DNA from: Ectobacillus antri | GTDB lineage: Bacteria > Bacillota > Bacilli > Bacillales > Bacillaceae_G | Reading direction: 5' to 3' | Assembly: GCF_003852715.1 (NCBI RefSeq) | Contig: NZ_RIAV01000025.1 | Location: 1-34,288 of the forward strand | Length of the DNA stretch: 34,288 bases | In this document: positions 472 to 19,595 of the stretch, in pieces | Layout of the letters: every line of letters starts with the position of its first letter | Numbering within the stretch: the first letter of the stretch is position 1 | Translations under genes and position numbers: made by a program | The notes under the pieces: model-generated | Databases searched by the model: none | What the model saw: only the letters and a program-made list of their open reading frames with translations | Told to the model about the DNA's origin: nothing

Positions 472-546
472 TCCGCAATAGCTCAGCGGTAGAGCAATCG
501 GCTGTTAACCGATAGGTCGTAGGTTCGAATCCTACTTGCGGAGCCA
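472..546 (+). tRNA. tRNA-Asn (GTT)
   Basis: The 75-nt cloverleaf has acceptor TCCGCAA pairing with TTGCGGA, anticodon loop CTGTTAA with anticodon GTT, T arm GTAGGTTCGAATCCTAC, discriminator G and an encoded CCA. It is the first intact tRNA of the cluster downstream of 5S. Confidence 0.97.
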
Positions 547-547
547 T

Positions 548-620
548 GCTTCCATAGCTCAGTCGGTAGAGCACTTCCATGGTAAGGAAGAGGTCACCGG
601 TTCAAGCCCGGTTGGAAGCT
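548..620 (+). tRNA. tRNA-Thr (GGT)
   Basis: Acceptor GCTTCCA pairs with TGGAAGC. The anticodon stem CTTCC/GGAAG carries loop ATGGTAA, anticodon GGT. The discriminator is T and no CCA is encoded, so the tail must be added by the CCA-adding enzyme. It lies one base after the tRNA-Asn CCA. Confidence 0.96.
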
Positions 621-636
621 ATGCGCCATTTTTAAT

Positions 637-711
637 GGCCCGTTGGTCAAGTGGTTAAGACACCGCCCTTTCACGGCGGTAACACGGGTTCGAATCCCGT
701 ACGGGTCACCA
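637..711 (+). tRNA. tRNA-Glu (TTC)
   Basis: Acceptor GGCCCGT pairs with ACGGGTC. The anticodon stem CCGCC/GGCGG carries loop CTTTCAC, anticodon TTC. CCA is encoded. Confidence 0.97.
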
Positions 712-716
712 TATAT

Positions 717-792
717 GGAGGATTAGCTCAGCTGGGAGAGCATCTGCCTTACAAGCAGAGGGTCGGCGGTTCGAGCCCGTCATCCTCCACCA
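717..792 (+). tRNA. tRNA-Val (TAC)
   Basis: Acceptor GGAGGAT pairs with ATCCTCC. The anticodon stem TCTGC/GCAGA carries loop CTTACAA, anticodon TAC. CCA is encoded. Confidence 0.97.
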
Positions 793-798
793 TATATC

Positions 799-883
799 GG
801 AGGGGTAGCGAAGTGGCTAAACGCGGCGGACTGTAAATCCGCTCCCTCAGGGTTCGGCGGTTCGAATCCGTCCCCCTCCACCA
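799..883 (+). tRNA. tRNA-Tyr (GTA)
   Basis: This is a class II tRNA of 85 nt with a long variable arm (CTCCCTCAGGGTTCGG region). The anticodon is GTA in CGGACTGTAAATCCG. The acceptor GGAGGGG pairs with the final CCCCCTCC. CCA is encoded. Confidence 0.97.
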
Positions 884-929
884 TTTTGTATAAAATTTGG
901 ACAACATGTCTAAAATAAAAACATATTGT

Positions 930-1004
930 TGGGCTATCGCCAAGCGGTAAGGCAACGGACTTTGACTCCGTCATTCGTTGGTTCGAATCCAGCTAGCCCA
1001 GCCA
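930..1004 (+). tRNA. tRNA-Gln (TTG)
   Basis: Acceptor TGGGCTA pairs with TAGCCCA. The anticodon loop is CTTTGAC, anticodon TTG, in stem CGGA/TCCG. CCA is encoded. The 46-bp gap from tRNA-Tyr is longer than the others in the cluster. Confidence 0.96.
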
Positions 1005-1008
1005 TTAT

Positions 1009-1081
1009 GAGCCATTAGCTCAGTCGGTAGAGCATCTGACTTTTAATCAGAGGGTCGAAGGTTCGAGTCCTTCATGGCTCA
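1009..1081 (+). tRNA. tRNA-Lys (TTT)
   Basis: Acceptor GAGCCAT pairs with ATGGCTC, with discriminator A. The anticodon loop CTTTTAA in stem TCTGA/TCAGA gives anticodon TTT. No CCA is encoded. Confidence 0.97.
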
Positions 1082-1087
1082 CATTTT

Positions 1088-1159
1088 GCGGAAGTAGTTC
1101 AGTGGTAGAATACAACCTTGCCAAGGTTGGGGTCGCGGGTTCGAATCCCGTCTTCCGCT
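1088..1159 (+). tRNA. tRNA-Gly (GCC)
   Basis: Acceptor GCGGAAG pairs with CTTCCGC, with discriminator T. The anticodon arm CAACCTTGCCAAGGTTG gives anticodon GCC. No CCA is encoded. Confidence 0.97.
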
Positions 1160-1169
1160 TACTTATAAA

Positions 1170-1245
1170 GGGGCCTTAGCTCAGCTGGGAGAGCGCCTGC
1201 CTTGCACGCAGGAGGTCAGCGGTTCGATCCCGCTAGGCTCCACCA
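1170..1245 (+). tRNA. tRNA-Ala (TGC)
   Basis: Acceptor GGGGCCT pairs with AGGCTCC, including the G3-U70 wobble pair that is the main identity element of tRNA-Ala. The anticodon loop CTTGCAC gives TGC. CCA is encoded. It is the last tRNA before the terminator. Confidence 0.97.
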
Positions 1246-1264
1246 ATTACATATTATAAATGAC

Positions 1265-1300
1265 AAGCTGTAGATTCAATAATGAATTTACAGCTTTTTT
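1265..1300 (+). terminator. Intrinsic terminator of the rRNA-tRNA operon
   Basis: A 14-bp stem (1265-1278 with 1283-1296, one G-U pair, loop ATAA) is followed by a run of T to 1300. It sits 20 bp after tRNA-Ala and separates the stable RNA operon from the glycerate kinase gene. Confidence 0.93.
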
Positions 1301-1349
1301 GTGTTTTCAATAAGATCTCTCTGTCATAATAAAGATGGAGGGATGAAAG

Positions 1350-2501
1350 ATGAAAATTATCATTGCGCCGGATTCATATAAAGAAAGCTTAACAGCTATG
1401 GATGTGTGTAATGCGATTGAAGAAGGGTTCAAACAAGTATACTCAGATGCAACATACATAAAAGTGCCGTTAGGTGATGGAGGCGAAGGAACGGCCTCTC
1501 TTTTAACAGAAGCATGCGGAGGCACCTTTGTCTCTTGTAAGGTACATGACCCATTAGGAAGAGTTATAGAGGCTTTTTACGGTCTCTCACCAGACGGTAG
1601 CACCGCATTTATTGAGATGGCAGCCGCTTCCGGATTACATCTTTTATCGCCGAAGGAACGAAACCCGCTTATAACAAGTACATATGGTACAGGAGAGCTC
1701 ATATTAGATGCTATAAATGCGGGTGTTCAAAAGATTATTTTAGGATTAGGAGGCAGCGCAACAAATGATGGGGGAGTCGGAATGGCTGCTGCATTAGGAG
1801 TACGGTTTTTAAATCGAAAGCGTAGCACTATTTCTTTAAATGGAGGCGGACTAGATGAGTTGGCTTACATTGATACATCTGCTTTAGATTCTCGACTAGC
1901 TTCTATTAAAATAGAAGCTGCTTGTGATGTGAATAATCCTTTGGTAGGAGAGAAAGGTGCCTCCTATATATTTGCTCCGCAAAAAGGAGCAACATCTACA
2001 ATGGTTGAGCAATTAGAAAGAAATATGAGAAATTATGCTTATGTTCTCCAAGAATGTGTACAGCGAGATGTAAATGTCGCAGGGGCAGGTGCTGCAGGGG
2101 GAATGGGTGCGGGCGTTCTTGCTTTCCTAGGCGGAGAGCTGGTGCCTGGTATTGACCTCGTTCTATCTGTTTCTGGTATCGAGAAACACATGCAAGAGGC
2201 AGAGCTTCTTATTACAGGGGAAGGAAGAATTGATGCACAAACCATTCAAGGTAAAACGATTTCAGGTGTGGCTACATTGGCTGCACAATATGGTGTACCT
2301 GTAGTTGTAATTGCTGGCTCGGCCGATAATAATCATCAGGTTGTTTATAAGCATGGCATTGACGCGGTATTTAGTATCGTACCGGGAGCCATGTCTTTAG
2401 AAGAAGCATTACAAAATGCATACGAAAACGTGACTCTAACTGCAAGGAATGTAGCAGCTGTTTGGAAAATAGCGCAACAGAGCTTATATAAAGATAACTA
2501 G
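1350..2501 (+). CDS. glxK: Glycerate kinase (GlxK/GarK family)
   Basis: Phosphorylates glycerate with ATP, in the cytoplasm, feeding glyoxylate/glycerate carbon into glycolysis (family knowledge). The 383-residue product has the usual family length. Visible family blocks are APDSYKES at residues 6-13, LGDGGEGT at 41-48, the glycine-rich GLGGSATNDGGVGMAAALG at 132-150, AAGGMGAG near 250 and TGEGRIDAQT near 285-295. The ATG is preceded by a GGAGGGA Shine-Dalgarno ~8 bases upstream. The gene stands alone between two terminators, so it is probably monocistronic. Whether the product is 2- or 3-phosphoglycerate cannot be told from sequence alone. Confidence 0.93.
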   Translation: MKIIIAPDSYKESLTAMDVCNAIEEGFKQVYSDATYIKVPLGDGGEGTASLLTEACGGTFVSCKVHDPLGRVIEAFYGLSPDGSTAFIEMAAASGLHLLSPKERNPLITSTYGTGELILDAINAGVQKIILGLGGSATNDGGVGMAAALGVRFLNRKRSTISLNGGGLDELAYIDTSALDSRLASIKIEAACDVNNPLVGEKGASYIFAPQKGATSTMVEQLERNMRNYAYVLQECVQRDVNVAGAGAAGGMGAGVLAFLGGELVPGIDLVLSVSGIEKHMQEAELLITGEGRIDAQTIQGKTISGVATLAAQYGVPVVVIAGSADNNHQVVYKHGIDAVFSIVPGAMSLEEALQNAYENVTLTARNVAAVWKIAQQSLYKDN

Positions 2502-2607
2502 AAAAACTATGCACACCCAATAAGATGTTATAGCTCTTTCTTTTTCTTTCCCTTGGTATGTTAGGAAAAATATACAAGCTTATATAGCGTTAGTTAAAAG
2601 ATGATAC

Positions 2608-2633
2608 AAAAACGCCATTCTTGGCGTTTTTTT
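2608..2633 (+). terminator. Intrinsic terminator after glycerate kinase
   Basis: AAAAACGCCA pairs with TGGCGTTTTT around loop TTCT, and the right arm runs into seven T residues. It lies about 105 bp after the glycerate kinase stop. The rest of 2634-2840 is AT-rich and holds no gene. Confidence 0.9.
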
Positions 2634-2749
2634 ATTTGTACAAGGATATGAGAAAATGACTCAACACCTTTTTACATGTACAAAACACCTGTCTTTTTAT
2701 GTAAAATTTTATTCATTTCTTATTATAAAATATAAATTAAATAAGGAAG

Positions 2750-2767
2750 CTTGTATAAATTTTCATG
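2750..2767 (+). promoter_or_regulatory. Candidate ArgR/AhrC box upstream of arginase
   Basis: The 18-mer CTTGTATAAATTTTCATG fits the Bacillus/E. coli ARG box pattern TnTGnATwwwwATnCAnA at most informative positions (mismatches at both ends and at one central A). A looser copy, TATGTAAAATTTTATTCAT at 2698-2716, lies about 34 bp upstream. AhrC is known to act on arginine catabolic genes in B. subtilis, so the position before an arginase makes sense. The call rests on pattern matching by eye in AT-rich DNA. Confidence 0.35.
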
Positions 2768-2854
2768 TATAGGTCGTGTTTTTATGCAAGAAAATGTCGA
2801 GTTGAACCATAATATAAAAAAGATTTAAAATATTTAGTGAACGGAGGGGGAAAT

Positions 2855-3754
2855 ATGAAGAAGAAAATTTCAATTATTGGTATGCCAATGGATTTAGGAC
2901 AAACAAGACGCGGTGTTGATATGGGGCCAAGTGCGATTCGATATGCCGGGGTTGTGGATCGTATTAAAAGAATTGGCTATGAGGTTGAAGACCTTGGAGA
3001 TATTGCTATTAATAGACCAAAACAATACGAGTTGGATGAAAATCAAAAGCTAAAAAACTTACATCAAGTTGTGGAAGCATGTCAGGAGCTTGCAGAAAAG
3101 GTTGACGATGTAATAGAAAGAGGAAGCTTTCCGCTTATTTTTGGCGGTGATCATAGTATGGCGGTGGGAACGCTTGCTGGAATTGCTAAACATAACAAAA
3201 ATATCGGTGTTATCTGGTACGATGCACATGGGGATTTAAATACAGAAGAGACATCTCCTTCTGGCAATATTCATGGTATGTCATTGGCAGCTAGCTTAGG
3301 ATACGGTCATCCACTTCTTGTAAATTTATATGGTGCGTATCCTAAAGTGAAAAAAGAAAACGTTGTCATTATTGGTGCCCGTGCTCTTGATGAAGGTGAA
3401 AAAGACTTTATTCGTGAAGAAGGCATAAAAGTATATTCTATGCATGAGATTGACCGTATGGGAATGGCAGCAGTTATGGAAGAAGCTATTGCTTATTTAT
3501 CTCATACAGATGGTGTACATCTTTCATTAGATCTTGATGGTCTTGACCCGCATGATGCACCTGGTGTGGGCACACCAGTTATTGGTGGACTATCCTACCG
3601 AGAAAGTCATTTAGCAATGGAAATGCTTGCGGAAGCAGGAATTATCACATCTGCGGAATTTGTGGAAGTCAATCCAATTTTAGATGAAAAGAATAAAACA
3701 GCTGTAACAGCAGTTGCTTTAATGGGTTCACTGCTTGGCGAAAAATTAAAATAA
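2855..3754 (+). CDS. rocF: Arginase
   Basis: Hydrolyses L-arginine to ornithine and urea in arginine catabolism; a cytoplasmic binuclear manganese enzyme. Metal-ligand motifs of the ureohydrolase family are all present: GGDHS at residues 97-101, DAHGDLN at 123-129 and SLDLDGLDP at 224-232, with AEFVEVNP near 275. The 299-residue length is typical for Bacillus. I choose ATG 2855 because GGAGGGGG lies 4-11 bases upstream; an in-frame GTG at 2837 would place the Shine-Dalgarno inside the gene. TTGAAC (2802) and TAAAAT (2826) could be a promoter. It is monocistronic, with its own terminator. Unlike B. subtilis rocDEF, no rocD or rocE neighbours are seen. Confidence 0.95.
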   Translation: MKKKISIIGMPMDLGQTRRGVDMGPSAIRYAGVVDRIKRIGYEVEDLGDIAINRPKQYELDENQKLKNLHQVVEACQELAEKVDDVIERGSFPLIFGGDHSMAVGTLAGIAKHNKNIGVIWYDAHGDLNTEETSPSGNIHGMSLAASLGYGHPLLVNLYGAYPKVKKENVVIIGARALDEGEKDFIREEGIKVYSMHEIDRMGMAAVMEEAIAYLSHTDGVHLSLDLDGLDPHDAPGVGTPVIGGLSYRESHLAMEMLAEAGIITSAEFVEVNPILDEKNKTAVTAVALMGSLLGEKLK

Positions 3755-7822: not shown

Positions 7823-9625
7823 ATGTGTGGAATCGTTGGATTTATTGGACAGCAAGACGCCAAGGAAATTTTGTTAAAAGGTTTAGAAAAACTTGAGTAT
7901 CGTGGATATGACTCCGCAGGTATCGCGGTACAAGCTGAGCAAGGTGTGGTTGTATTTAAAGAAAAAGGCCGCATTGCCATTCTTCGTGAGAGCGTTGATG
8001 CATCTGTGCATGCAACTGTTGGTATCGGACATACGCGCTGGGCAACACATGGCGTGCCAAGTAAAGTAAATGCGCACCCGCATCAAAGTACGTCTAAACG
8101 TTTTACACTTGTACACAACGGTGTTATTGAAAACTACGAACTACTGAAAAATGATTACCTGCAAGGTGTAACATTTGTAAGTGAAACAGATACAGAAATT
8201 ATCGTACAATTAATTGAAAAGCATGTGAATGAAGGTATGGATGTTGAAGAAGCCTTTCGTCAAACATTAACATTGCTACATGGTTCTTATGCCATAGCAT
8301 TACTTGATAACCAAAACCAAGACATCATTTACGTTGCAAAAAATAAGAGCCCATTGTTAGTCGGTGTCGGTGACGACTTCAACGTTGTCGCAAGTGATGC
8401 AATGGCAATGCTGCAAGTAACAAATCAATACATCGAACTAATGGACAAAGAAATGGTGCTTGTGACACGCGACAGCATCACAATTAAAAATCTAGCTGGT
8501 GAAACAATTGAGCGCGCGCCTTACACGGCAGAGCTTGATGCAAGCGACATCGAAAAGGGTACGTACCCGCACTTTATGTTAAAGGAAATCGACGAGCAGC
8601 CGCTAGTAATCCGTAACATCATTCAAAAGTACCGCAATGAAGCGGGGGAAATTGAGCTTGACGCAGATATTCGTAACGCTGTACTAGATAGCGACCGCAT
8701 TTACATCATTGCATGCGGCACAAGCTATCATGCAGGTTTAGTCGGAAAGCAATTAATTGAAGGCTATGCGAAGGTACCAGTTGAAGTACACGTAGCAAGT
8801 GAGTTTTCTTACAATATGCCGCTATTGACTGAAAAGCCGTTCTTCATCTATATTTCACAAAGTGGTGAAACAGCGGATAGCCGTGCGGTGCTTGTACAAA
8901 CGAACGAAATGGGCCACAAGGCATTAACAATTACAAACGTACCAGGTTCTACACTTTCTCGTGAAGCAGATTATACATTGCCATTATACGCAGGTCCTGA
9001 GATTGCGGTTGCATCTACAAAAGCTTACACAGCACAGATTGCAGTACTAGCAATCCTTGCGGCTGATATCGCAAAAGCAAAAGGCCGTACATTGGACTTT
9101 GATTTAACACAAGAACTAGGTTTAATTGCGAATGCAATGGAAGTACTTTGCGGACAAAAAGAAGAAATGGAAGCTATCGCACGTGAATTCCTTCCGACAA
9201 CACGCAACTGCTTCTTCATTGGACGCGGCGTTGACTTCTTCGTCGGCCTAGAGGGCGCATTGAAGCTAAAAGAGATTTCCTATATCCAAGCAGAAGGCTT
9301 CGCAGGCGGCGAGCTGAAGCACGGTACAATTGCCTTAATTGAAAACGGCACACCTGTTATCGCCCTTGCAACACAGGAGCACGTAAATCTAGGAATTCGC
9401 GGCAACGTGAAGGAAGTAGTAGCACGCGGTGCAAATCCATGCATCATCTCTATGAAGGGCTTAGAAATGAACGGTGACCGCTTTGTATTACCGGCAGTAC
9501 ACGAGACACTGTCTCCGCTTGTATCGGTAATCCCGCTACAGTTGATCTCTTACTACGCAGCATTGCACCGTGAGTGTGATGTTGATAAGCCACGTAACTT
9601 GGCGAAATCGGTTACGGTGGAATAA
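7823..9625 (+). CDS. glmS: Glutamine-fructose-6-phosphate aminotransferase
   Basis: Makes glucosamine-6-phosphate from fructose-6-phosphate and glutamine, the first committed step to UDP-GlcNAc. The product has 600 residues, the family length. The N-terminal Ntn glutaminase domain begins MCGIVGFIG, where Cys2 becomes the N-terminal nucleophile after Met removal; YRGYDSAG lies at 27-34. Two SIS sugar-isomerase domains follow (ACGTSYHAG and SQSGETADS motifs). The C-terminus is the conserved [11 protein letters not shown]. The start is fixed by the catalytic Cys: an in-frame ATG at 7778 would bury it behind 15 extra residues. No good Shine-Dalgarno is adjacent to ATG 7823. Synonymous codon use is visibly different from the neighbouring glmM (more ACA/GCA/CGC), a mild oddity. 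Confidence 0.97.
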
Positions 9626-9717
9626 GGGATTAGCTTGGTTGCCTCGCAACTGTCTAAACAGAATAATGTTTGCAGAATGTTAAAAAAGTCTGCTTAAGAA
9701 GAAAAAAGTTTGCAGAA

Positions 9718-9766
9718 AGTCTCGTGGGTATATCCAGAGTATGGGTATAATCACGGGGCTTTTTTA
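9718..9766 (+). terminator. Intrinsic terminator after glmS
   Basis: AGTCTCGTG (9718-9726) pairs with CACGGGGCT (9752-9760) over 9 bp, three of them G-U, followed by TTTTTT. The loop is 25 nt. It lies ~95 bp after the stop. Confidence 0.7.
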
Positions 9767-10060
9767 TGTTTTTTGTGTGCTAACACAGGCTTTTGTGGGG
9801 ATCAAGGTTTCCCTTACGGGGTTGTGCAATTCCTTCATTAAAACATCACAGGGGACGCTCCCTTATCTCTGTGAATTAGGGAGCACTGGAACGAATCCAA
9901 TAAAGGGAAAGTCCACGTCCAGCAACGTGTAATACGCTCCAAGCAGTTCCTCGCCAATAAAAAATAAATAAATATATAAATAATTAGCATATGTGTGGGA
10001 AGTATGGGAATGACGGTGGTAAAGGAGAAACCGTACAGTACTATGAATAAGGCCGATTGA
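9767..10060 (+). other. Unassigned stretch between glmS and the first IS
   Basis: No recognisable gene. The reverse strand is open from about 10066 down to a stop at 9863-9865 and reads a plausible C-terminal peptide (GEELLGAYYTLLDVDFPF followed by IGFVPVLP). The forward strand is also open across part of it. Neither has a convincing start or ribosome binding site. It could be the end of a gene destroyed by the insertion events that follow, or chance. Confidence 0.25.
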
Positions 10061-10138
10061 TTGGATAGGCTACACTTAGTTGGACAGAAAAATTAAGGTC
10101 AAGTAGACTACAGTTAATACTATTAGGGAGAATCTACT

Positions 10139-10423
10139 ATGACGAAAAAAGCTCGACGAACATTCACACCGGAATTCAAGCAACAGATCGTTCAACTATA
10201 TCTTAACGGTAAACCACGAAAAGACATTATTCGCGAGTACGACCTTACACCCTCATCTTTGGATAAGTGGGTGAATCAACATCAAACGTCTGGATCATTC
10301 AAAGAAAAAGATAATTTGACGCCTGAACAACAAGAATTAAACAAACTTCGAAAAGAAATTAAGCAGCTTCAAATGGAGAATGACATTTTAAAGCAAGCCG
10401 CGCTGATACTAGGACGAAAGTAA
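10139..10423 (+). CDS. IS3-family transposase OrfA (element B)
   Basis: DNA-binding half of the transposase. The 94 residues comprise an N-terminal helix-turn-helix (RRTFTPEFKQQIVQLY, then DIIREYDLTPSSLDKWV, about residues 6-47) and a C-terminal leucine-zipper-like helix (QQELNKLRKEIKQLQMENDI, about 65-84). Length and layout are those of intact IS3-family OrfA proteins. The ATG follows GGGAGAATCTACT. Since orfB is deleted, OrfA cannot move this copy and would at most bind the ends. Confidence 0.9.
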   Translation: MTKKARRTFTPEFKQQIVQLYLNGKPRKDIIREYDLTPSSLDKWVNQHQTSGSFKEKDNLTPEQQELNKLRKEIKQLQMENDILKQAALILGRK

Positions 10424-10425
10424 AT

Positions 10426-11027
10426 GTGATCAAGAACAATCAACACAAATACTCGATATCAGCAATGTGTAAAGTCCTACAACTTCCGAGAAGTACGTAT
10501 TATTATGAAGCAAAAGAAAGATCTTCTGAGGATGACTTAACATCTAAAATTATTGAAGTTTTTCATGCAAGTCGCCAAAACTATGGAACTCGTAAGATTA
10601 TGTATGTGTATTTGTCGATCTCTTTAACAGAGAAATCATTGGATGTAGCACAGGGCCTAACAAAGATGCGGCATTGGTTTATCGTGCGTTTGCCTCTATC
10701 CAGAAGGATCTTCGTAAGATTCAGTATTTCCATACAGATCGAGGAAGTGAGTTTAAAAACAAACTCATGGATGAAGCGTTACAGACGTTTGATATTAAAA
10801 GATCTCTAAGTATGAAAGGTTGCCCTTATTATAATGCCGTGGCAGAGGCAACGTTTAAAATCATCAAAACCGAGTTTATCAGAGGTCGACATTTCACTAG
10901 TCTGGAAGAGTTATCAAGAGAACTACAAGACTATGTGCATTGGTTTAATCATATTCGAATTCACGGAACACTAGGGTATTTAAGCCCAATTGAATACAAA
11001 CTTGAACACCTTAAAAAAGTTGTCTAG
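10426..11027 (+). pseudogene. IS3-family transposase OrfB, deleted and frameshifted
   Basis: The N-terminal part (KNNQHKYSISAMCKVLQLPR to NYGTRKI, about 56 residues) is in one frame up to about 10598. From about 10602 the family sequence resumes in a different frame as VFVDLFNREIIGCSTGPNKD and runs through HTDRGSEF and NAVAEATFKIIKTE to the stop at 11027. The segment that normally carries the first catalytic Asp (the DLTYV region) is missing. The second Asp and the Glu of the DDE triad remain. An out-of-frame internal deletion of very roughly 90 codons explains this. Confidence 0.88.
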
Positions 11028-11045
11028 TTTTGTGTTGACAATCCA
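10831..11045 (+). repeat. 215-bp direct repeat, left copy
   Basis: The 3' third of element B from ATAATGCCGTGGCAGAGG to its right end. It is repeated in the same orientation at 13934-14147 with a single 1-base deletion there (TCTGGAAGAG here, TCTGGAGAG there). The two copies flank the IS66 fragment, the bacteriocin-like cassette and element A. Confidence 0.95.
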
Positions 11046-11391
11046 CACAACGATGATCCGGGTGATCGGTCATACGAAGCGTATGACCCGTGTGTCCCGG
11101 CTGTCCACCAGACTGCCGCCCTGTTTTCATGCGGGATGACTTTGGAATAGGAGCCCAGTCAGAAGAAGGCGGCAAATGGCTGTTAGTACTGTTTTTTTTA
11201 CCCTGTGCTTCTAGCGTTTGAATACGTGCTTCTAACGTCTGAACCTTTTCTTCTAATTCATGATTCCGTTGAAGCAATGATTGAACCTGCGCTTCTAACT
11301 CTTGATTGCGTTGAAAGAGTGTCTGAATCAGCTGTACAATCTTGTCTGGTTTTGCATGGCAGGCAGTCAAAATTTCGTCTCGTGTCATCAT
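11046..11391 (-). pseudogene. IS66-family transposase, N-terminal fragment
   Basis: Reverse-strand reading from ATG 11391 (start after AGGAGGTG, well spaced) gives MTRDEILTACHAKPDKIVQL, then a long coiled-coil region rich in Glu/Leu (about residues 20-60), then KNSTNSHLPPSSD, RQSGGQPGHTGHTL and a CxxC. This is the typical N-terminus of IS66 TnpC (coiled coil, linker, zinc-binding). The reading frame is cut at the right end of element B after ~115 residues; the catalytic DDE domain is absent from the window. Confidence 0.85.
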
Positions 11392-11400
11392 CTTGTTCAC

Positions 11401-11437
11401 CTCCTGTTTATCATGGTAGTACCATTCTTTACAGGAG
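11401..11437 (-). promoter_or_regulatory. Hairpin that would hide the IS66 transposase ribosome binding site
   Basis: CTCCTGT (11401-11407) is the exact complement of ACAGGAG (11431-11437). Between them lies the palindrome TGGTAGTACCA (11414-11424). In reverse-strand RNA the ACAGGAG arm is part of the Shine-Dalgarno of the fragment starting at 11391. A transcript entering from outside would pair both arms and close the site. Confidence 0.5.
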
Positions 11438-11468
11438 AAAGGAAATCTAAAACACAAATCTATAAAAC

Positions 11469-11495
11469 GTAACTATCAGCAAGCTGAATAGTTAC
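11469..11495. other. Short perfect inverted repeat
   Basis: GTAACTATCAGC pairs with GCTG-A-ATAGTTAC around a 2-nt AA centre, with one bulged A. It lies between the IS66 fragment and the next terminator. It could be an end-proximal structure of the IS66-type element or an extra terminator stem; no T run follows on either strand. Confidence 0.4.
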
Positions 11496-11508
11496 ACGAA
11501 ATATTTAT

Positions 11509-11558
11509 GAGAAAACGCCATCCTTTTAATAGATTACTAAAAAGGATAGCGTTTTCTC
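11509..11558 (-). terminator. Terminator-like hairpin downstream of the small membrane gene
   Basis: GAGAAAACGC..ATCCTTTT pairs with AAAAGGAT.GCGTTTTCTC across about 18 bp with one mismatch and an 11-nt loop. It stands ~50 bp beyond the stop of the reverse-strand gene at 11607-11804. T runs are within the stem rather than after it, so efficiency is uncertain. It could act in both directions. Confidence 0.6.
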
Positions 11559-11606
11559 GTCCAGATAAATACATCGCCAGAATAGCTGGATGTGCGTGGG
11601 TTTTAA

Positions 11607-11804
11607 TTATTTAGAAGGTGTTTTACCCCTAGAAATAAAATACAAGATTAAAATTACAACAAATAACGTGATGCTGACAACGCCTGTTAAGGATTCATTA
11701 TGTGTTGAATAATTAACAATGGTAATGATCAATAAAAAAAGGGCTCCAATTAAAGGTAACTTCTCTTTCAAAAAACTCCCCCATTCAATATTAAAAGATT
11801 CCAT
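11607..11804 (-). CDS. Small two-helix membrane protein, possible bacteriocin immunity protein
   Basis: Up to 65 residues: a short polar N-terminus (MESFNIEWGSFLKEK), a first hydrophobic helix (LPLIGALFLLIITIV, ~17-31), a short polar loop (NYSTHNESL), a second helix (VVSITLFVVILILYFI) and a basic tail (SRGKTPSK). No family is recognised. ATG 11804 lacks a Shine-Dalgarno. GGGGGAG lies just before an in-frame TTG at 11771, which would give a 54-residue protein, so the start is uncertain. It is transcribed divergently from the secreted bacteriocin-like gene across 59 bp. Small basic two-helix proteins next to bacteriocin genes are often immunity proteins; that role is inference. Confidence 0.65.
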   Translation of the reverse strand: MESFNIEWGSFLKEKLPLIGALFLLIITIVNYSTHNESLTGVVSITLFVVILILYFISRGKTPSK

Positions 11805-11863
11805 TTTATATATAAATTTATTACAATATTATTATACCGTATAATTACATATGAGGAATAAGT

Positions 11864-12538
11864 ATGAAGAAAAAGTTTATCCCTTTTCTAGCTTCTGTTT
11901 TTCTTTTAGGCTCCTTAGCACCGATGACTTCAAATGCAGCCGAATCACTGTATTCAGTGCAATCTGTGCAAGCAAGGGATCTTACACCGCAAGAGCTCTC
12001 AGTTGATAACAAAATTTTCGAACAATCAGAATCATTATTTGGAGCAATTGAAAATATTCCAGACAGCGTTGTAGAGCAAGGACCACAGGCAACTGCTCAA
12101 TGGTTACAAAATGAAACCGGTTATATTGTGACAGTAGATTCTCAAGAAACTTTGCGTTTTAGTGAAACATCTTCTACAGAGCTTGTTGATAATCAGGAAG
12201 GTATTGACCCTAACACTCCTGCAAAATTTTTAAAACCTACTGATCCCCAGTACGGTGTAGCAGCATGCGTCGGAGCTGTTGGAGTTGCACTCGTTAGTAA
12301 TGGACTACCATTTTCAAAGATTCTAAAAGTTAAGTCTGCTATTAAGGCACTTGGTGGAACTGCGAATGCAGTATCTAAGATTAAAGGTTTATATGATTCT
12401 TATCGTTGGAATGGTTTTTCTAGAAGTGATTCTATCAGAAAAGCCTTAAACGGTGCATCAGGTGGATTAGCAGCAGATCTGAAGTCTGCTCTTCTTGACT
12501 TCTTCAACTTGAGTAATGTTATCGCAAACTGCTTCTAA
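11864..12538 (+). CDS. Secreted closticin 574-like bacteriocin precursor
   Basis: 224 residues. There is a Sec signal peptide: MKKK, hydrophobic FIPFLASVFLLGSLAP, and a likely cut after SNA (residue 25). A polar acidic region (26-~126) follows, then a C-terminal domain (~127-224) rich in Gly/Ala/Ser and Lys with only two cysteines, Cys135 and Cys223, the latter in the terminal IANCF. From memory, mature closticin 574 of Clostridium tyrobutyricum is also a C-terminal ~82-residue peptide of a larger precursor, with an early Cys, a KIKKYIAELGG-like helix (here KVKSAIKALGG, 155-165) and a terminal IQANCF. This points to a pro-bacteriocin cleaved near residue 127. GAGG precedes the ATG and TATAAT lies at 11840-11845. 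It is flanked by IS remnants; a divergent small membrane gene may give immunity. No dedicated exporter is present, or needed with a Sec signal. Confidence 0.72.
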   Translation: MKKKFIPFLASVFLLGSLAPMTSNAAESLYSVQSVQARDLTPQELSVDNKIFEQSESLFGAIENIPDSVVEQGPQATAQWLQNETGYIVTVDSQETLRFSETSSTELVDNQEGIDPNTPAKFLKPTDPQYGVAACVGAVGVALVSNGLPFSKILKVKSAIKALGGTANAVSKIKGLYDSYRWNGFSRSDSIRKALNGASGGLAADLKSALLDFFNLSNVIANCF

Positions 12539-13016
12539 TTTTTTGGTTAGTTAGCCAAAGGTTAATATACATATCAATTACAAAATTATGAGAAAGAGCC
12601 ATAACTCGGTTATATATGAACTGCACCCCGATTGTTAGACACGCCTAACAATCGGAGGTGCAGTTTTTCTATGACCAAATATACGTTAGAGACCAAACTA
12701 GGGGTCGTTCAAGATTACTTAGAGGGGAAAGATTCCTATAAGGGTGTAGCCCGCAAGCATAGAGTGACAGAGAGTATGGTGGCGAAATGGGTAAAACGAT
12801 TTCGTCACCATGGTCTGGAGGGGCTTCAAAAACAGTATACAAACCACTCCTTGGAGTTTAAAATGGACGTACTGAATTACTTGGAACGAACAGGGGCGTC
12901 CATTAATGAAACTGCACTTGTCTTTAACATTCCTTCTGACAGTACGGTATGGAAGTGGAGGGAATTGTTTGAAGCAGGAGGACTGGACGCTCTACAACCA
13001 AAGACAAAGGGGCGTC

Positions 13017-13274
13017 TGTTTTGTGCAATGAAAAAGTGCAGAGTTGTGCAGTATATTAAATTCATTTTGTTGATTAAATATTCATTTGTGGTCGCTGAGG
13101 GTGGGCTTGACATGGAGCCTCTACAGGCATGATCCTCCTGCCAAGAATCCAGCCATTAAAGGGATTGGCAGAACCGACACAAGTCTATCATGCCTGCCAC
13201 TCCACGTAAAGCCCTGGTGCATACCAATGAATAGGAATTCTGCAATATTCTGCACTTTTATTCTGCAATAAACA
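13017..13274. repeat. 258-bp MITE with 6-bp target duplication
   Basis: The insert in orfA is flanked by GGCGTC on both sides (13011-13016 and 13275-13280). Removing it with one GGCGTC restores an uninterrupted OrfA. The ends are imperfect inverted repeats of ~36 bp: inward from the left TGTTTTGTGCAATGAAAAAG then TGCAGA, inward from the right TGTTTATTGCAGAATAAAAG then TGCAGA. Inside is a perfect 10-bp inverted repeat CAGGCATGAT (13124-13133) / ATCATGCCTG (13187-13196) with a nested TGCCAA..ATCC arm. It has no coding capacity for a transposase, so it would depend on an enzyme encoded elsewhere. Confidence 0.8.
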
Positions 13275-13380
13275 GGCGTCCATCCATGAAGAAAAAAGAA
13301 TCTAAAAACCAACCTATACCAGGCTCTGTAGAGGCACTACAAGCAGAGAATGAACTCTTACGGGCGGAGAATGCCTACTT

Positions 13381-13387
13381 AAAAAAG
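13381..13387 (+). other. Programmed -1 frameshift heptamer A AAA AAG
   Basis: AAAAAAG lies in phase with orfA as ttA AAA AAG. The orfB frame is -1 relative to orfA and is open from here on. This is the standard IS3-family arrangement for making the OrfAB fusion. Confidence 0.75.
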
Positions 13388-14076
13388 TTACAAGCCTTAA
13401 TTCAAGAAAAGGAAACGTTACAGACCAAGATAAAGCGCAAATAATTTATGAGTTAAGGCAGAAATATAGGGTCATTGATCTTGTGAAGATCGCCTGCATA
13501 GCACGCAGTACGTATTATTATTGGGTGAAACAGATGGGGCTGAAGAGCCTCGTACGCATGAAGAAATACCGTTCCTATCGAGGTAATGTCGGGAAGGTTG
13601 CCCCGAATCTTTTGGAACGTAACTTTATGGCCACGAGACCAAATGAGAAGTGGGTGACGGATGTAACCGAGTTCCACTTGCACGGGGAGAAACTCTACCT
13701 CTCGCCTGTCTTAGACCTGTATAACGGAGAAATTATTGCGTATAACGTCAAGTCTCGGCCTGTGTATGAACTCGTCTCAGAGATGTTGGACCTGGCTTTT
13801 GAGCGCCTTCCAGAAACACACTCTCTCATTCTGCATTCTGACCAGGGTTGGCACTATCAAATGGCGCAGTATCAAACGGCATTGAAGGAGCAAAACATCC
13901 AACAAAGCATGTCCCGCAAGGGCAATTGCCTCGATAATGCCGTGGCAGAGGCAACGTTTAAAATCATCAAAACCGAGTTTATCAGAGGTCGACATTTCAC
14001 TAGTCTGGAGAGTTATCAAGAGAACTACAAGACTATGTGCATTGGTTTAATCATATTCGAATTCACGGAACACTAG
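13387..14076 (+). pseudogene. Chimeric IS3-family OrfB
   Basis: Entered by frameshift, it reads IIYELRQKYRVIDLVKIACI, then ARSTYYYWVKQM joined directly to GLKSLVRMKKYRSYRGNVGK. In related transposases roughly 50 residues lie at that joint, so an in-frame deletion is likely. The catalytic core DVTEFHLHGEKLYLSP and ILHSDQGWHYQM are IS150-like and carry both Asp residues. At GNCLDNAV the protein switches to element B sequence (AEATFKIIKTEFIRGRHFTS). A single-base deletion then changes frame and stops it at 14076. A separate GTG at 13483 is not needed to explain translation. Confidence 0.83.
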
Positions 14077-14147
14077 GGTATTTAAGCCCAATTGAATACA
14101 AACTTGAACACCTTAAAAAAGTTGTCTAGTTTTGTGTTGACAATCCA
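13934..14147 (+). repeat. 214-bp direct repeat, right copy
   Basis: Identical to 10831-11045 except for one missing A in a GAA/GA position. It supplies the codon for the catalytic Glu region and the right inverted repeat to the chimeric element. See the left copy for the pair relationship. Confidence 0.95.
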
Positions 14148-14422
14148 GGGTTTGAGGGGGATTAGAGAGGGGGAGGGAGTAGGAACGGTATTATTTTGTG
14201 GGGACAGAAATACGGAAACGACTTTCTTAGGTGGATACACAAGATACAACAGGATTTCGCAATGGAAAGTGAAAATGAAACAAGTGGGGGAATATTATGA
14301 TTTGCCGACATAGTAGATAGTAAGGTGTTGTTAATTTAGTTTTAATAAAAACGTAAGGAAGTATATTCTTTTAAATGATTGAAATACTATCCTTGTATTA
14401 AAAACAAGGAGGATGTTATAAA
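14148..14422 (+). other. Unassigned stretch with a possible gene remnant
   Basis: A purine-rich start (GGGTTTGAGGGGGATTAGAG) is followed by an open frame ending at 14313 that reads FLGGYTRYNRISQWKVKMKQ and closes VGEYYDLPT. It has no start of its own and begins inside the IS, so it is at best the end of a disrupted gene. The last ~90 bp are AT-rich and should contain the hsp20 promoter, but I see no convincing -35/-10 pair, CIRCE element or CtsR site. Confidence 0.25.
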
Positions 14423-14860
14423 ATGGCATTATTACCATATGATTCATTCAGACAACTTTCAAATATGAGAAGGGAATTTGACCGTATTTTCTCTGATTTT
14501 CCAATTTCCTTTGAAAATGAGCAGGTATTAGGAAGCATCCGAGTGGATGTTCATGAAACGGCAAATGAAGTTGTGGCAACATGTGATATTCCTGGGCTTG
14601 AAAAAAAGGAAGATGTTGATATCGATATTGAAAACAATAGATTAAGCATCAGTGGTTCTATTAATCGTACCAATGAAATTAAAGAGGAAAATATGTTTAG
14701 AAAAGAACGCTTTGCAGGTCGCTTTAGCAGAATGATAACACTTCCAAGTCCTGTTTCACATGAGGGTGTAAAAGCAACCTATAAAAATGGTGTCCTTGAA
14801 ATAAAAATGCCGAAAATTGTAAAAGACACTAAAAAGAAAGTAGATGTAGATTTCCATTGA
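14423..14860 (+). CDS. Small heat shock protein, Hsp20/alpha-crystallin family
   Basis: ATP-independent holdase chaperone. The 145 residues comprise a short N-terminal arm (MALLPYDSFRQLSNMRREFD), an alpha-crystallin domain from about 38 (SIRVDVHETANEVVATCDIP) to 135, and the signature KNGVLEIKMPK near 124-134. The C-terminal tail is short (KKKVDVDFH) and lacks a clear IxI motif. AAGGAGGA precedes the ATG by 10 bases. It sits alone at the edge of the mobile-element region and is followed by a terminator. Confidence 0.92.
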   Translation: MALLPYDSFRQLSNMRREFDRIFSDFPISFENEQVLGSIRVDVHETANEVVATCDIPGLEKKEDVDIDIENNRLSISGSINRTNEIKEENMFRKERFAGRFSRMITLPSPVSHEGVKATYKNGVLEIKMPKIVKDTKKKVDVDFH

Positions 14861-14969
14861 TATTATTATCAACAATGATGTTCTTATCTCTTGGTAACCA
14901 AGTTCTTCCCTCATAATTCGAGTTTGTACCTGTGGTAATATATGTGCATCTCGTTATTCAAATGAATCT

Positions 14970-15011
14970 GAATCGGGGACCTACCATTGGTACGTCTCCC
15001 GGTTCTTTTTT
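14970..15011 (+). terminator. Terminator-like hairpin downstream of hsp20
   Basis: GAATCGGGGAC pairs with GTCTCCCGGTTC (small mismatch and G-U), with an inner TACCA/TGGTA pairing, followed by six T residues. It lies about 110 bp after the hsp20 stop. It could equally belong to a lost neighbour. Confidence 0.65.
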
Positions 15012-15176
15012 AATAAACCATTTCATAAAAGCAGTTAACCAGGGCAAATTTTCTCCATATTTTCGTGCTGAATCGGTCATTACTCTTTTGAGTGGAAAAA
15101 GCCTGATTGAGCTGATGTGAACTACTCACCACTTAGCTTTGCTTGAAGAGGGAGGCTTCCTTCAGAATTATGTTAA

Positions 15177-15607
15177 ATTGTACCTCTAAGTCCGCAAGTT
15201 TTAGCGGAACAAGTAAGGCGTGGTGATATTGTAAGTGTAAATTGTCAGGTAACATATTAGAAACTTTCTTTGAGATACAACATAAAAAGAAAGTATTAGG
15301 TGTAATTGATACAGGAAAAGTAAATGCTACACAAATATTAGGAACAACGTCTGCTACGTTTGGTATTGATGAATACACATTGAAAGCAGATATGAAAGTC
15401 ACGGTTCACAAATATGAGTACATACTTCATCACATTGATATTTCTGAATTTCTGCCATTCTTTAAAGAAATAATATAACAGTTAGATTTGAATTGGGCAT
15501 TGGTACTGGAGGATTTAAGCTCTACTTTGGACAAGAAAGGGGAGCTTTATGGTCAAGGTTTTGACGTTGGGGTGTTTTTCCGTCGCATAAAGAAAGGAGA
15601 AGAATAA
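15177..15607 (+). pseudogene. Degenerate coding remnant, several frames
   Basis: Protein-like stretches succeed one another in different frames without starts or ribosome binding sites: IVPLSPQVLAEQVRRGDIVS (15177-15260), KKKVLGVIDTGKVNATQILG then TSATFGIDEYTLKADMKVTV (15242-15478), VRFELGIGTGGFKLYFGQER (from 15481), and GQGFDVGVFFRRIKKGEE ending near 15607. The changes of frame within 430 bp suggest one or two decayed genes. I do not recognise the family. 15012-15176 contains nothing I can assign. Confidence 0.4.
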
Positions 15608-15609
15608 TT

Positions 15610-15785
15610 TATTTACATTCGCTAGAATACCATCAGCAATTGTTGTAATAGTATTAATTACCTTATCATTTTTTGTTTCAATAAAAATGTCTGAAAGAAT
15701 CTACTTTATTGTATTCATTGTGGTATGTTGGATGAGGTTACAGATTGTCGCTACGTTGCTACAAAAATGTCGTAATAAAATATGA
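15610..15785 (+). pseudogene. Remnant of a small membrane protein gene
   Basis: A frame without a clear start reads RIPSAIVVIVLITLSFFVSI then MSERIYFIVFIVVCWMRLQI and ends at TGA 15783-15785: two hydrophobic segments separated by a short polar loop. The GAAGGAGAAG-like purines upstream (15593-15604) are followed by no ATG. A following stretch (about 15787-15880) also reads as peptide (VKRNGAWNIGIRFAIKVIVS) in another frame. Probably decayed; no function proposed. Confidence 0.35.
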
Positions 15786-15937
15786 TGTAAAGCGCAATGG
15801 TGCTTGGAACATAGGAATTCGTTTTGCAATAAAAGTCATAGTCTCTAAGGTGATATGTAGACGAGCATCTTTGATTTATTAATAAAATAAGCGATTGCTG
15901 TTTTTAAGTAGGTATACAGTAAGACACTTTAAAAACG

Positions 15938-15971
15938 AAAAATCCGGCTCACTTACAGCAAGTCGGATTTT
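15938..15971 (-). terminator. Terminator of the P-loop protein gene
   Basis: On the reverse strand AAAATCCGACT pairs with AGCCGGATTTT around a loop holding the stop codon region, followed by TCGTTTTT. The stem overlaps the end of the reverse-strand gene. Confidence 0.75.
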
Positions 15972-16726
15972 ACTGTTATATACTCCTCCACCAGTTCTCT
16001 CGGTGTTCGCTCCGAGCGCTCGTTTTCAATGACCACTGAAGATATAGGCAATTTTCCTAACACCTCAACCTCTCTTCGCTTTCGTTCCTCCAGCACTGTG
16101 ACCGTACCGTCAATCCCATTTAAGCCAAGGCTTTTGCCATATCTACGCTCTGTATAGTACGCTACAAATCCGTGCTGCCAGCCTTCTGGGCGCTCTTTAT
16201 AAACGTCTAAGAAGGATTGCTTTACGTTTTGGTGGGACAGGTAATATACCACTGGATTGAGTGGCTGAATGATAGCAGCGATGCTTTGAATATAAGCCTC
16301 GATTTCTTCATGCGGTACATTTTGTGAGATCATGCCGATTGTAAACGGATTTTGCAACAAGGCACAGTCAAATAGGTAGACTGTATCTTCTGCCAAGGCT
16401 TTTGCAGCAAAGCGCTCCCAGCGTCTTAGCATGAGCGCCGCGTGCTGCGCGAATGGCATTTCGTATATGTCAAAGGCCTGAAGCTCGGGTATGTTTTCGT
16501 AGCGAACAAACCAGCCGTCTTCAAAGCGGTCAACGATGCATTCTTCTGCGATTGTGAAGCTTTCTAGCTGCGCAAGCGGTACCCATGCGGTCATGTCAAA
16601 GTCGACAGGATGATTTGCAGCTGCTTCGTGATAATATTTGATGCTCAGATATGCATCTGCGATGGCTTCCGAAAAGGAGCTTTTTCCGGTACCAGGTAGG
16701 CCTTCTACTAAAATTAACTTGTGCAT
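15953..16726 (-). CDS. P-loop NTPase of unknown function
   Basis: 257 residues, cytoplasmic, starting MHKLILVEGLPGTGKSSFSE: the Walker A loop GLPGTGKS sits at residues 9-16, as in small nucleoside/nucleotide kinases. FDCALLQNPF near 145-154 could be a Walker B-like strand. I cannot name a substrate; similar proteins in Bacillus are annotated hypothetical. The start is ATG 16726, preceded by TTAGGAGGACTTAT; the frame stays open upstream to 16810 but lacks a ribosome binding site there. It is divergent from the two-component operon and has its own terminator. Confidence 0.8.
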   Translation of the reverse strand: MHKLILVEGLPGTGKSSFSEAIADAYLSIKYYHEAAANHPVDFDMTAWVPLAQLESFTIAEECIVDRFEDGWFVRYENIPELQAFDIYEMPFAQHAALMLRRWERFAAKALAEDTVYLFDCALLQNPFTIGMISQNVPHEEIEAYIQSIAAIIQPLNPVVYYLSHQNVKQSFLDVYKERPEGWQHGFVAYYTERRYGKSLGLNGIDGTVTVLEERKRREVEVLGKLPISSVVIENERSERTPRELVEEYITVKSDLL

Positions 16727-16846
16727 ATAAGTCCTCCTAAAAGCTGTATATAGTACGTTTCTATATTTATATCTTATAATCCTTCTCAATCTTATCTTGC
16801 GGCGTGACATTTCTTTAGATATCCTATCCTAAGGAGATGTTTTTTT

Positions 16847-18674: not shown

Positions 18675-19595
18675 GTGGCAACGATTTTAAAAACAGAGAG
18701 CCTAACCAAAGCGTACGGTGAGCAGCGCTCAGTTGACAATCTAAGCATAACGGTGAAACAGGGAGATATTTATGGCTTTTTGGGCAGGAATGGAGCAGGA
18801 AAAACAACGACTATCCGCATGCTGCTTGGTTTAATTCAACCGACTGCTGGAAGTATTGAAATATTTGGTGAGGAGCTGCAACGCAATAAAAAAAGTATTT
18901 TAAAAAGAATTGGCTCTATCGTTGAGGTGCCGGGCTTTTACGAAAATTTGACGGCAAGAGAGAACTTGCAGATTCATGCGAGAATTGCGGGCGTGCATAA
19001 AAAGACTGCGATGGATGAAGTGCTCGAGTTAGTTAGTTTGCAGCATGAAACGAAAAAGCTTGTGGGTGCATACTCGTTGGGAATGAAGCAAAGACTTGGT
19101 ATCGCAAGAGCGCTACTACATTACCCGGAATTGCTGATTTTAGATGAACCGACAAATGGATTAGATCCTATTGGTATTAAAGAAATGAGAAGGTTAATTA
19201 AAGGCTTGGTAGAGGAAAGAAAGATTACAGTTTTTATATCCAGTCATATCTTGTCTGAAATCGAACAAGTAGCTAATCATATTGGCATTATCCATAAGGG
19301 AAAGCTTCTACAGGAAATTGACTTTAAACAGCTAGCTAAATTAAATCGTAAATACCTAGAGTTTACTGTTTCTCACGAAGCAAAAGCGGCCGTTCTTTTA
19401 GAAACAGAGCTTTCTACGTATGATTACGAGATAAGAGGTGAGGGGAATATTCGCATATATTCTCACCTGGGGCAGCAGGCCCAAATTAATACTTTATTTG
19501 TTCGAAATGGCATTGAAGTATCCAAAATAAATATGAGTGCCGATCGATTAGAGGATTACTTTACAAAGCTAGTGGGAGGCGGGGAGATTGGGTGA
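18675..19595 (+). CDS. ABC transporter ATPase, BcrA-like
   Basis: 306 residues. Walker A GRNGAGKTT (about 37-45), Q-loop region VEVPGFYENLT, signature YSLGMKQRLGIARAL, Walker B LLILDEPTNGLDP, H-loop SSHILSEIEQ. The C-terminal ~90 residues are the extension common in BcrA/NatA-type ATPases. The start is GTG 18675 after GGTGGGAG. It drives export or removal of bacitracin-like compounds with the next permease (inferred from family and context). Its 3' end overlaps the permease start by 8 bp. Confidence 0.88.
   Translation: MATILKTESLTKAYGEQRSVDNLSITVKQGDIYGFLGRNGAGKTTTIRMLLGLIQPTAGSIEIFGEELQRNKKSILKRIGSIVEVPGFYENLTARENLQIHARIAGVHKKTAMDEVLELVSLQHETKKLVGAYSLGMKQRLGIARALLHYPELLILDEPTNGLDPIGIKEMRRLIKGLVEERKITVFISSHILSEIEQVANHIGIIHKGKLLQEIDFKQLAKLNRKYLEFTVSHEAKAAVLLETELSTYDYEIRGEGNIRIYSHLGQQAQINTLFVRNGIEVSKINMSADRLEDYFTKLVGGGEIG

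Follow-up and report, generated by a model that had tools for sequence, protein, structure and literature searches.

An Ectobacillus antri gene for a predicted closticin 574-like pro-bacteriocin and its divergent candidate immunity partner

Closticin 574, reportedly described by Kemperman in 2003, is the closest comparison for the gene studied here, and a second one is offered by circular bacteriocins such as AS-48 and circularin A, whose production depends on a gene cluster and whose ends are ligated to each other. In Clostridium tyrobutyricum ADRIAT 932 closticin 574 is made as a precursor of 309 aa with a mature part of 82 aa (as relayed in PMC10888436), and the same source gives CLB, from Bacillus altitudinis ECC22, as 50% identical to it. 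When the predicted mature part of CLB was made by cell-free synthesis, two indicators were not inhibited; the authors consider that the indicators may have been insensitive, that the gene may be dead or that it may serve a different function (PMC10888436). Closticin-574 relatives are mentioned on plasmids of Clostridium butyricum MIYAIRI 588 and C. beijerinckii pNF1 (PMC5894183) and a closticin is mentioned in Paenibacillus larvae prophages (PMC9341999); PMC11322243 gives a closticin-like gene as absent from its C. tyrobutyricum strain. SacP23, considered as a further relative, is presented as a sactipeptide in PMC10731318 and was set aside. In the literature searched, which did not extend to the original closticin 574 paper, we found no immunity gene for closticin-like bacteriocins, nor a paper naming the subfamily or the partner analysed below.

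The stretch of DNA analysed as a whole (34,288 nucleotides, hereafter the window) carries a gene pair downstream of glmS, between IS3-like remnants. Its features are these:

10139 to 11027, plus strand: IS3-like remnant, an HTH_Tnp_1 orfA with integrase-core pieces (Pfam)
11011 to 11457, minus strand: remnant with a DUF6444 match (Pfam), IS66-like
11607 to 11804, minus strand: divergent two-helix membrane protein, candidate immunity gene, likely start TTG 11771 giving 54 aa (neighbour profile)
11772 to 11863, no strand: putative shared divergent promoter region, with ATTATACCGTATAAT, an inverted repeat, at positions 11831-11845 (promoter scan not above chance)
11853 to 11858, plus strand: ribosome-binding site GAGGAA of the pro-bacteriocin gene, 5 nt ahead of its ATG
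11864 to 12538, plus strand: putative pro-bacteriocin gene, 224 aa (intact ORF; PHROG 25631; relatives)
11864 to 11938, plus strand: Sec-type signal peptide, residues 1-25, cut between TSNA and AES, predicted by eye from the sequence
11939 to 12241, plus strand: acidic pro-region spanning residues 26-126; the conserved motif IExIPDxVxxQGxxATxxWL begins at residue 62 (charge; alignments)
12242 to 12535, plus strand: predicted cationic core, residues 127/128-224, with C135 and C223 near its ends (six-helix prediction; closticin-type core homology)
12632 to 14076, plus strand: IS3-like transposase remnants (Pfam; 3' end near-identical to that of the other element)

A preliminary description of this DNA had noted a Sec signal peptide, an acidic pro-region and a two-cysteine C-terminal domain, and both the sequence, with its intact reading frame, and the computed charges bear this out. 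Specifically, residues 26-126 have a pI of 4.05 and a charge of -12.2, and core residues 128-224 a pI of 9.8 and a charge of +6.9 (+5.7 when counted from 127). The only two cysteines of the 224-aa protein are C135 and C223, and these, the KVKSAIKALGG helix (residues 155-165) and the C-terminus IANCF were all found as first noted. If the cut precedes P128, the oxidised core would have a calculated mass of ~9,994 Da; among the 34 window-type cores aligned, the D-P junction is present in the window's alone.

The AlphaFold model of the core consists of six helices (mean pLDDT 81, pTM 0.66). The full-length model has high confidence over residues 41-100 and C135 lies in a low-confidence part, so the predicted structure gives a disulfide no support. 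A single conserved pair of cysteines in an exported protein is, as a rule, joined by a disulfide. Fold searches with the full model against PDB, and with the core model against PDB and BFVD, returned no match at E <= 0.001.

Over its whole length the window protein resembles PHROG 25631 (E 5.7e-44), a group that itself has neither a name nor an assigned function. Searches of Pfam and of PDB sequences with the same protein gave nothing at E <= 10, NCBIfam gave a single sub-cutoff match (E 0.16), and profile-library searches over a 24-sequence alignment gave scattered matches, each in at most three rows; among these scattered matches, one row paired with SAR2788 at E 0.007. The strong match to an unrelated family that had been named beforehand as counting against the closticin reading did not appear in the profile libraries. 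Using tblastn, 52 plasmid records were matched (37 from Bacillus and 9 from Staphylococcus), of which 20 were itemised and 10 retrieved as sequence. Of 396 other genomes taken from the window's order, the family profile matched 24; matches also occur in 5 of 59 other relatives' genomes and in 2 of 397 others taken from the phylum, and on these counts the family is patchily distributed. Scanning genome contigs yielded 23 loci, some partial or broken, from Bacillus, Peribacillus, Anoxybacillus, Geobacillus, Paenibacillus, Staphylococcus, Streptococcus gallolyticus, Actinobaculum, Clavibacter, Pseudoclavibacter, Rothia, Curtobacterium and Arthrobacter.

The anatomy is conserved across these relatives. 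Counting the window's own, 35 window-type proteins were compared, and in 34 of them both cysteines occupy the same two end positions, the exception being L007, where the first is missing. In all 35 the presumed core contains exactly two cysteines and the pro-region is free of them, all 35 combine an acidic pro-region with a basic core, and 34 carry a loose form of the pro-motif ([IV][ED]x[ILMV]P). The plasmid records, the 24 genomes of the order and the cysteine placement together put the observation beyond chance, and by its sequence the window protein is a member of a real family found on plasmids, prophages and chromosomes.

Three architectures can be told apart. Window-type proteins (type B) have 170-262 aa, mostly ~200, with a short acidic pro-region and a core of ~97-106 aa, longer in L003. 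CLB-type proteins (type A; L067, L068 and L073) are called at 304-330 aa and consist of a long pro-region, with ADP at its end, and a core of 81-84 aa; L070, also of type A, is a fragment without the N-terminal part. Bridge-type proteins (type C), encoded at the actinobacterial loci L039-L045 and at L065, from the window's order, combine a type-B-like pro-region with a core of closticin length. One cysteine near each core end, with no further cysteine in the core, is present in 4/4 CLB-type and 7/7 bridge-type proteins, and the other traits have exceptions: the pro-region is acidic in two of the three CLB-type proteins measured and the loose pro-motif is found in none of the four, and of the seven bridge-type proteins six have a basic core, two a cysteine in the pro-region and five the loose pro-motif.

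Comparison of the core profiles with hhalign gave 94.8% and E 1.2e-8 for type B against type A, E 1.8e-17 for type B against type C and E 3.8e-18 for type A against type C, with four sequences in the type A profile and seven in that of type C. Since it matches both of the others, type C links the window's family to the closticin type. Our comparisons with closticin 574 used a provisional sequence, which has two cysteines near the ends, a KIKK..LGG helix and the end ANCF. This provisional sequence scored 29.3 bits against the type-B core profile, compared with at most 12.8 among 1,000 shuffles, and shares 24 of 82 residues (29%) with the window core; the L073 core is 58.5% identical to it, against the 50% given for CLB in PMC10888436. 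The alignment to a closticin-type core beyond mere composition, on which the preliminary description had staked its reading, was thus obtained. Since the actinobacterial loci had been found with patterns taken from the KxK...LGG stretch, conservation of that stretch is in part selected for, and the matches outside it are free of this effect. On these alignments the window core is homologous to closticin-574-type cores.

The core of L073 begins PDWSKIAA and contains, at its start, the printed CLB forward primer exactly (24/24 bases); the printed reverse primer resembles the L073 end and does not equal it. Searches of plasmids and viral contigs with CLB-type sequences found no clostridial closticin. 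One such search gave 24 records, all actinobacterial, of which H21 and H22 match well into the core and the rest end at or near its start. Relatives of the long CLB-type pro-region, as represented by L073, were seen among plasmid proteins of Streptomyces, Rhodococcus, Clavibacter, Arthrobacter and Curtobacterium, several of them annotated as other kinds of protein. Since its relatives belong to differently annotated actinobacterial plasmid proteins, this long pro-region seems to be a shared export module.

The divergent ORF on the other side of the intergenic region (11607-11804) was also present as proposed, with two hydrophobic helices predicted, and only its start had to be moved. Since GGGGGAG ends 4 nt before TTG 11771, and no ribosome site lies ahead of ATG 11804, the start first assigned, translation more likely begins at the TTG. 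Its product gave weak sub-cutoff matches, of which the antiporter-subunit model NF005623 of NCBIfam scored best (E 0.0055, 16.9 bits, cut-off 81). The inverted repeat between the two genes places one TATAAT on each strand. Some 7-nt intergenic inverted repeat occurs in 7 of 22 loci, window included, and shuffles expect ~3; the promoter scan of the intergenic region gave a signal no better than chance and an Rfam search of window positions 9600-14500 gave no match.

Small membrane ORFs of this kind are common beside type-B genes. A divergent two-helix ORF was present within 400 nt at 24 of the 33 non-redundant type-B loci (window included) and beside 2 of 65 control ORFs drawn from the same loci; when any orientation was allowed, an adjacent small two-helix ORF was found at 29 of the 33, compared with 5 of the 65 controls. 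The 33 are the 35 window-type loci, the window's among them, less L020 and L038, which are at least 90% identical to others; copies and close relatives had been left out beforehand (L004, L061, L033, L051, L021, L047, L050, L049, L053, L022, L037, L052, L048 and L064), and broken or partial loci (L018, L030, L035, L062, L066, L069, L071 and L072) were also left out. Two loci, L082 and L083, were found after the count, and L082 has a divergent 76-aa two-helix ORF. At L010 the divergent ORF is doubtful and the likely partner is a same-strand ORF downstream, which gives a strict figure of 23/33, and at 7 of the 33 loci more than one two-helix ORF lies within reach. The link expected by the preliminary description is strong; what did not hold is that the neighbour would always be there, given that the two-helix test failed at L023, L032, L059 and L063. 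The sequence of L059 stops shortly upstream, and L063 has a 62-aa neighbour under the helix threshold. As called, the 24 counted divergent neighbours range from 54 to 115 aa, and 21 fall within 54-77 aa.

These neighbours also resemble one another. A profile of 21 of them, with the window's excluded and some fairly close relatives (e.g., L019 and L024) included, found the window's ORF among 1,364 ORFs with an E value of 4.1e-18 (61.5 bits). Moreover, across 27 loci neighbour similarity followed core similarity (Mantel r 0.73, p 0.0002; 0.50 with the pro-region removed), and its correlation with pro-region similarity (r 0.63) came down to 0.17 with the core removed. A matching neighbour is intact at four loci where the toxin frame is broken or truncated (L066, L035/L062, L069 and L071); L018, L030 and L072, also broken or partial, have no matching neighbour, and in L053 both genes are shortened. 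Among type A loci, three of four have a divergent membrane protein of 115-122 aa. The conserved adjacency, the homology among neighbours, the similarity that tracks the core and the intact partners beside broken toxins all argue that the small two-helix neighbour is probably an immunity protein.

The same data bear on the alternative that the full secreted protein is active, as in the class III bacteriocin geobacillin 26, with the N-terminal half serving in targeting. Its size, Sec signal and helical make-up are similar to those given for Geo26 and Ali24 (PMC13176240), its pro-motif is conserved beyond the needs of a mere spacer, and the confidently modelled segment falls in the N-terminal half. 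We nevertheless consider this unlikely: closticin-length cores occur with either pro-region, it is the core that neighbour similarity tracks, the change of charge from pro-region to core is uniform in the window type, and NCBIfam, to the extent that it includes a Geo26 model, gave no match. As to an SdpC-type toxin, neither Pfam nor NCBIfam, again to the extent that they include such a model, gave a match and no SdpAB-like genes were noticed in the ORF lists.

Many Gram-positive bacteria carry related toxin/neighbour pairs, frequently on a plasmid or prophage. In the window itself the pair is flanked by transposase remnants only, the nearest ABC-transporter genes being at 18675. The staphylococcal plasmid of L014 is 3.3 kb long and carries the pair with just two other annotated genes, rep and a hypothetical one, which suggests that the pair can do without a linked transporter; it is found on Bacillus plasmids as well. 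On the prophage-like contig of L019 the cassette (484-3588) comes after two genes of holin type and one for an endolysin, the region after holin and endolysin genes being a usual place for lysogenic-conversion genes, and on that of L010 the toxin gene precedes terminase genes and shares its strand with its likely partner. In Priestia megaterium (L009, 1-1747) the cassette is near a SAR2788 family putative toxin gene and an S8 peptidase gene, a possible maturation enzyme.

Both prophage-like settings, together with membership of a PHROG, would fit a prophage or plasmid fitness gene (for example for superinfection exclusion or as a lysis accessory) with the small membrane protein as its partner. 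We hold this to be very improbable, since the gene is also on small plasmids and chromosomes, a search of 50,697 phage records gave no match, and the core is homologous to a bacteriocin family.

The preliminary description had also suggested horizontal transfer, pointing to the IS-rich surroundings. IS remnants alone are no proof of it; support comes from the plasmid and prophage relatives and from the interval downstream of glmS, in which other genes replace window positions 9626-15976 in the congener that is closest among three (96% identity in glmS). None of the three congeners has a match, and the window's genome as assembled has no second copy of either gene. The variable site extends from glmS up to the ORF at 15953-16810, and the closest congener has a 1,352-aa secreted-looking protein there. 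The IS3-like remnants flanking the cassette have the same orientation and near-identical 3' ends of ~215 nt (10831-11045 and 13934-14147), with two blocks, 139 and 76 nt long, in exact agreement, and resemble a composite arrangement. That the gene is a silent or decaying relative of closticin which has survived among IS remnants by chance is scarcely credible, for although IS remnants flank both sides, broken relatives exist and CLB was inactive in the one assay given in PMC10888436, each of the two reading frames is open and has a ribosome site, and the family-invariant residues are kept in the window protein.

The preferred explanation, and one in which we have good confidence, is a self-contained cassette of pro-bacteriocin and immunity gene, with Sec export, proteolysis near residue 127 and an end-to-end disulfide. 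The precursor would be exported via the Sec pathway and lose its signal peptide, and the acidic pro-region would balance the cationic core and keep it inactive or soluble. Outside the membrane a host protease would cleave around residue 127, the D-P junction of CLB suggesting by analogy a cut before P128, and oxidation would join C135 and C223, the eighth and next-to-last residues of the core. The product would be an end-tied, all-helical bundle of ~97 residues attacking the membranes of related Gram-positive bacteria, and the divergent 54-aa two-helix protein would block the peptide in the producer's membrane. The gene probably encodes a secreted weapon against relatives of the producer. The strongest caution comes from CLB, of the other subtype, whose predicted mature part left two indicators uninhibited (PMC10888436); a core that requires its disulfide might also fail in a cell-free assay. 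Further points against the model are the absence of a fold match, the low-confidence placement of C135, the D-P junction seen in the window's core alone, the loci at which no two-helix or matching neighbour was found, and the weak sub-cutoff matches of the small protein.

We regard as an evenly balanced proposition that the window represents a large subfamily of minimal two-gene killing cassettes, spread by plasmids and prophages through Bacillota and Actinomycetota, each encoding a disulfide-tied, pseudo-circular bacteriocin with an acidic pro-region and a coevolving two-helix immunity protein, and having no linked transporter or modifying enzyme. The cassette is very small (~0.95 kb) and is carried by plasmids and prophages in several genera. 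Closticin-like matches turn up in genome mining, and a conserved, coevolving membrane partner makes immunity directly testable; the natural combinations of pro-region and core, for their part, show where the predicted active part begins.

Finally, the locus can be set against the known systems. Like circular bacteriocins, the window core is predicted to be a small cationic helical bundle with its ends brought together, and membrane action is expected of it; unlike them, it would be closed by a disulfide, and no dedicated cluster genes lie beside the pair. The dedicated cluster of a circular bacteriocin is missing both in the window, where transposase remnants alone adjoin the pair, and on L014, with only rep and a hypothetical gene. 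Like closticin 574, in its provisional sequence, the window protein is a predicted Sec precursor with a C-terminal mature part, two end cysteines, a helix of the KIKK..LGG kind and an ANCF end; it differs in precursor length (224 vs 309 aa), in a mature part of ~97 rather than 82 aa, with an insert in the second half, and in its pro-region, judged from CLB-type relatives. The pro-region carries the IExIPD motif and is not of the closticin-574 type, which corrects the preliminary description. Drawn broadly, by core homology, end cysteines and a signal plus pro-region, the closticin 574 family includes the window protein; drawn strictly, it does not, given the 224 aa, the IExIPD pro-region and the 97-98-residue core. 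The C. butyricum and C. beijerinckii plasmid bacteriocins, compared by description, have a closticin-type core, unlike the window's (PMC5894183). CLB, compared here through L073, has a homologous core and, as in the window, a divergent upstream membrane protein, but it is 304 aa long with a long ADP-ending pro-region, and CLB-type neighbours measure 115-122 aa (three loci) against mostly 54-77 (PMC10888436 for CLB itself). By these sequence comparisons the window gene is a variant of closticin 574 with a shorter and different pro-region, a longer core and a smaller partner.
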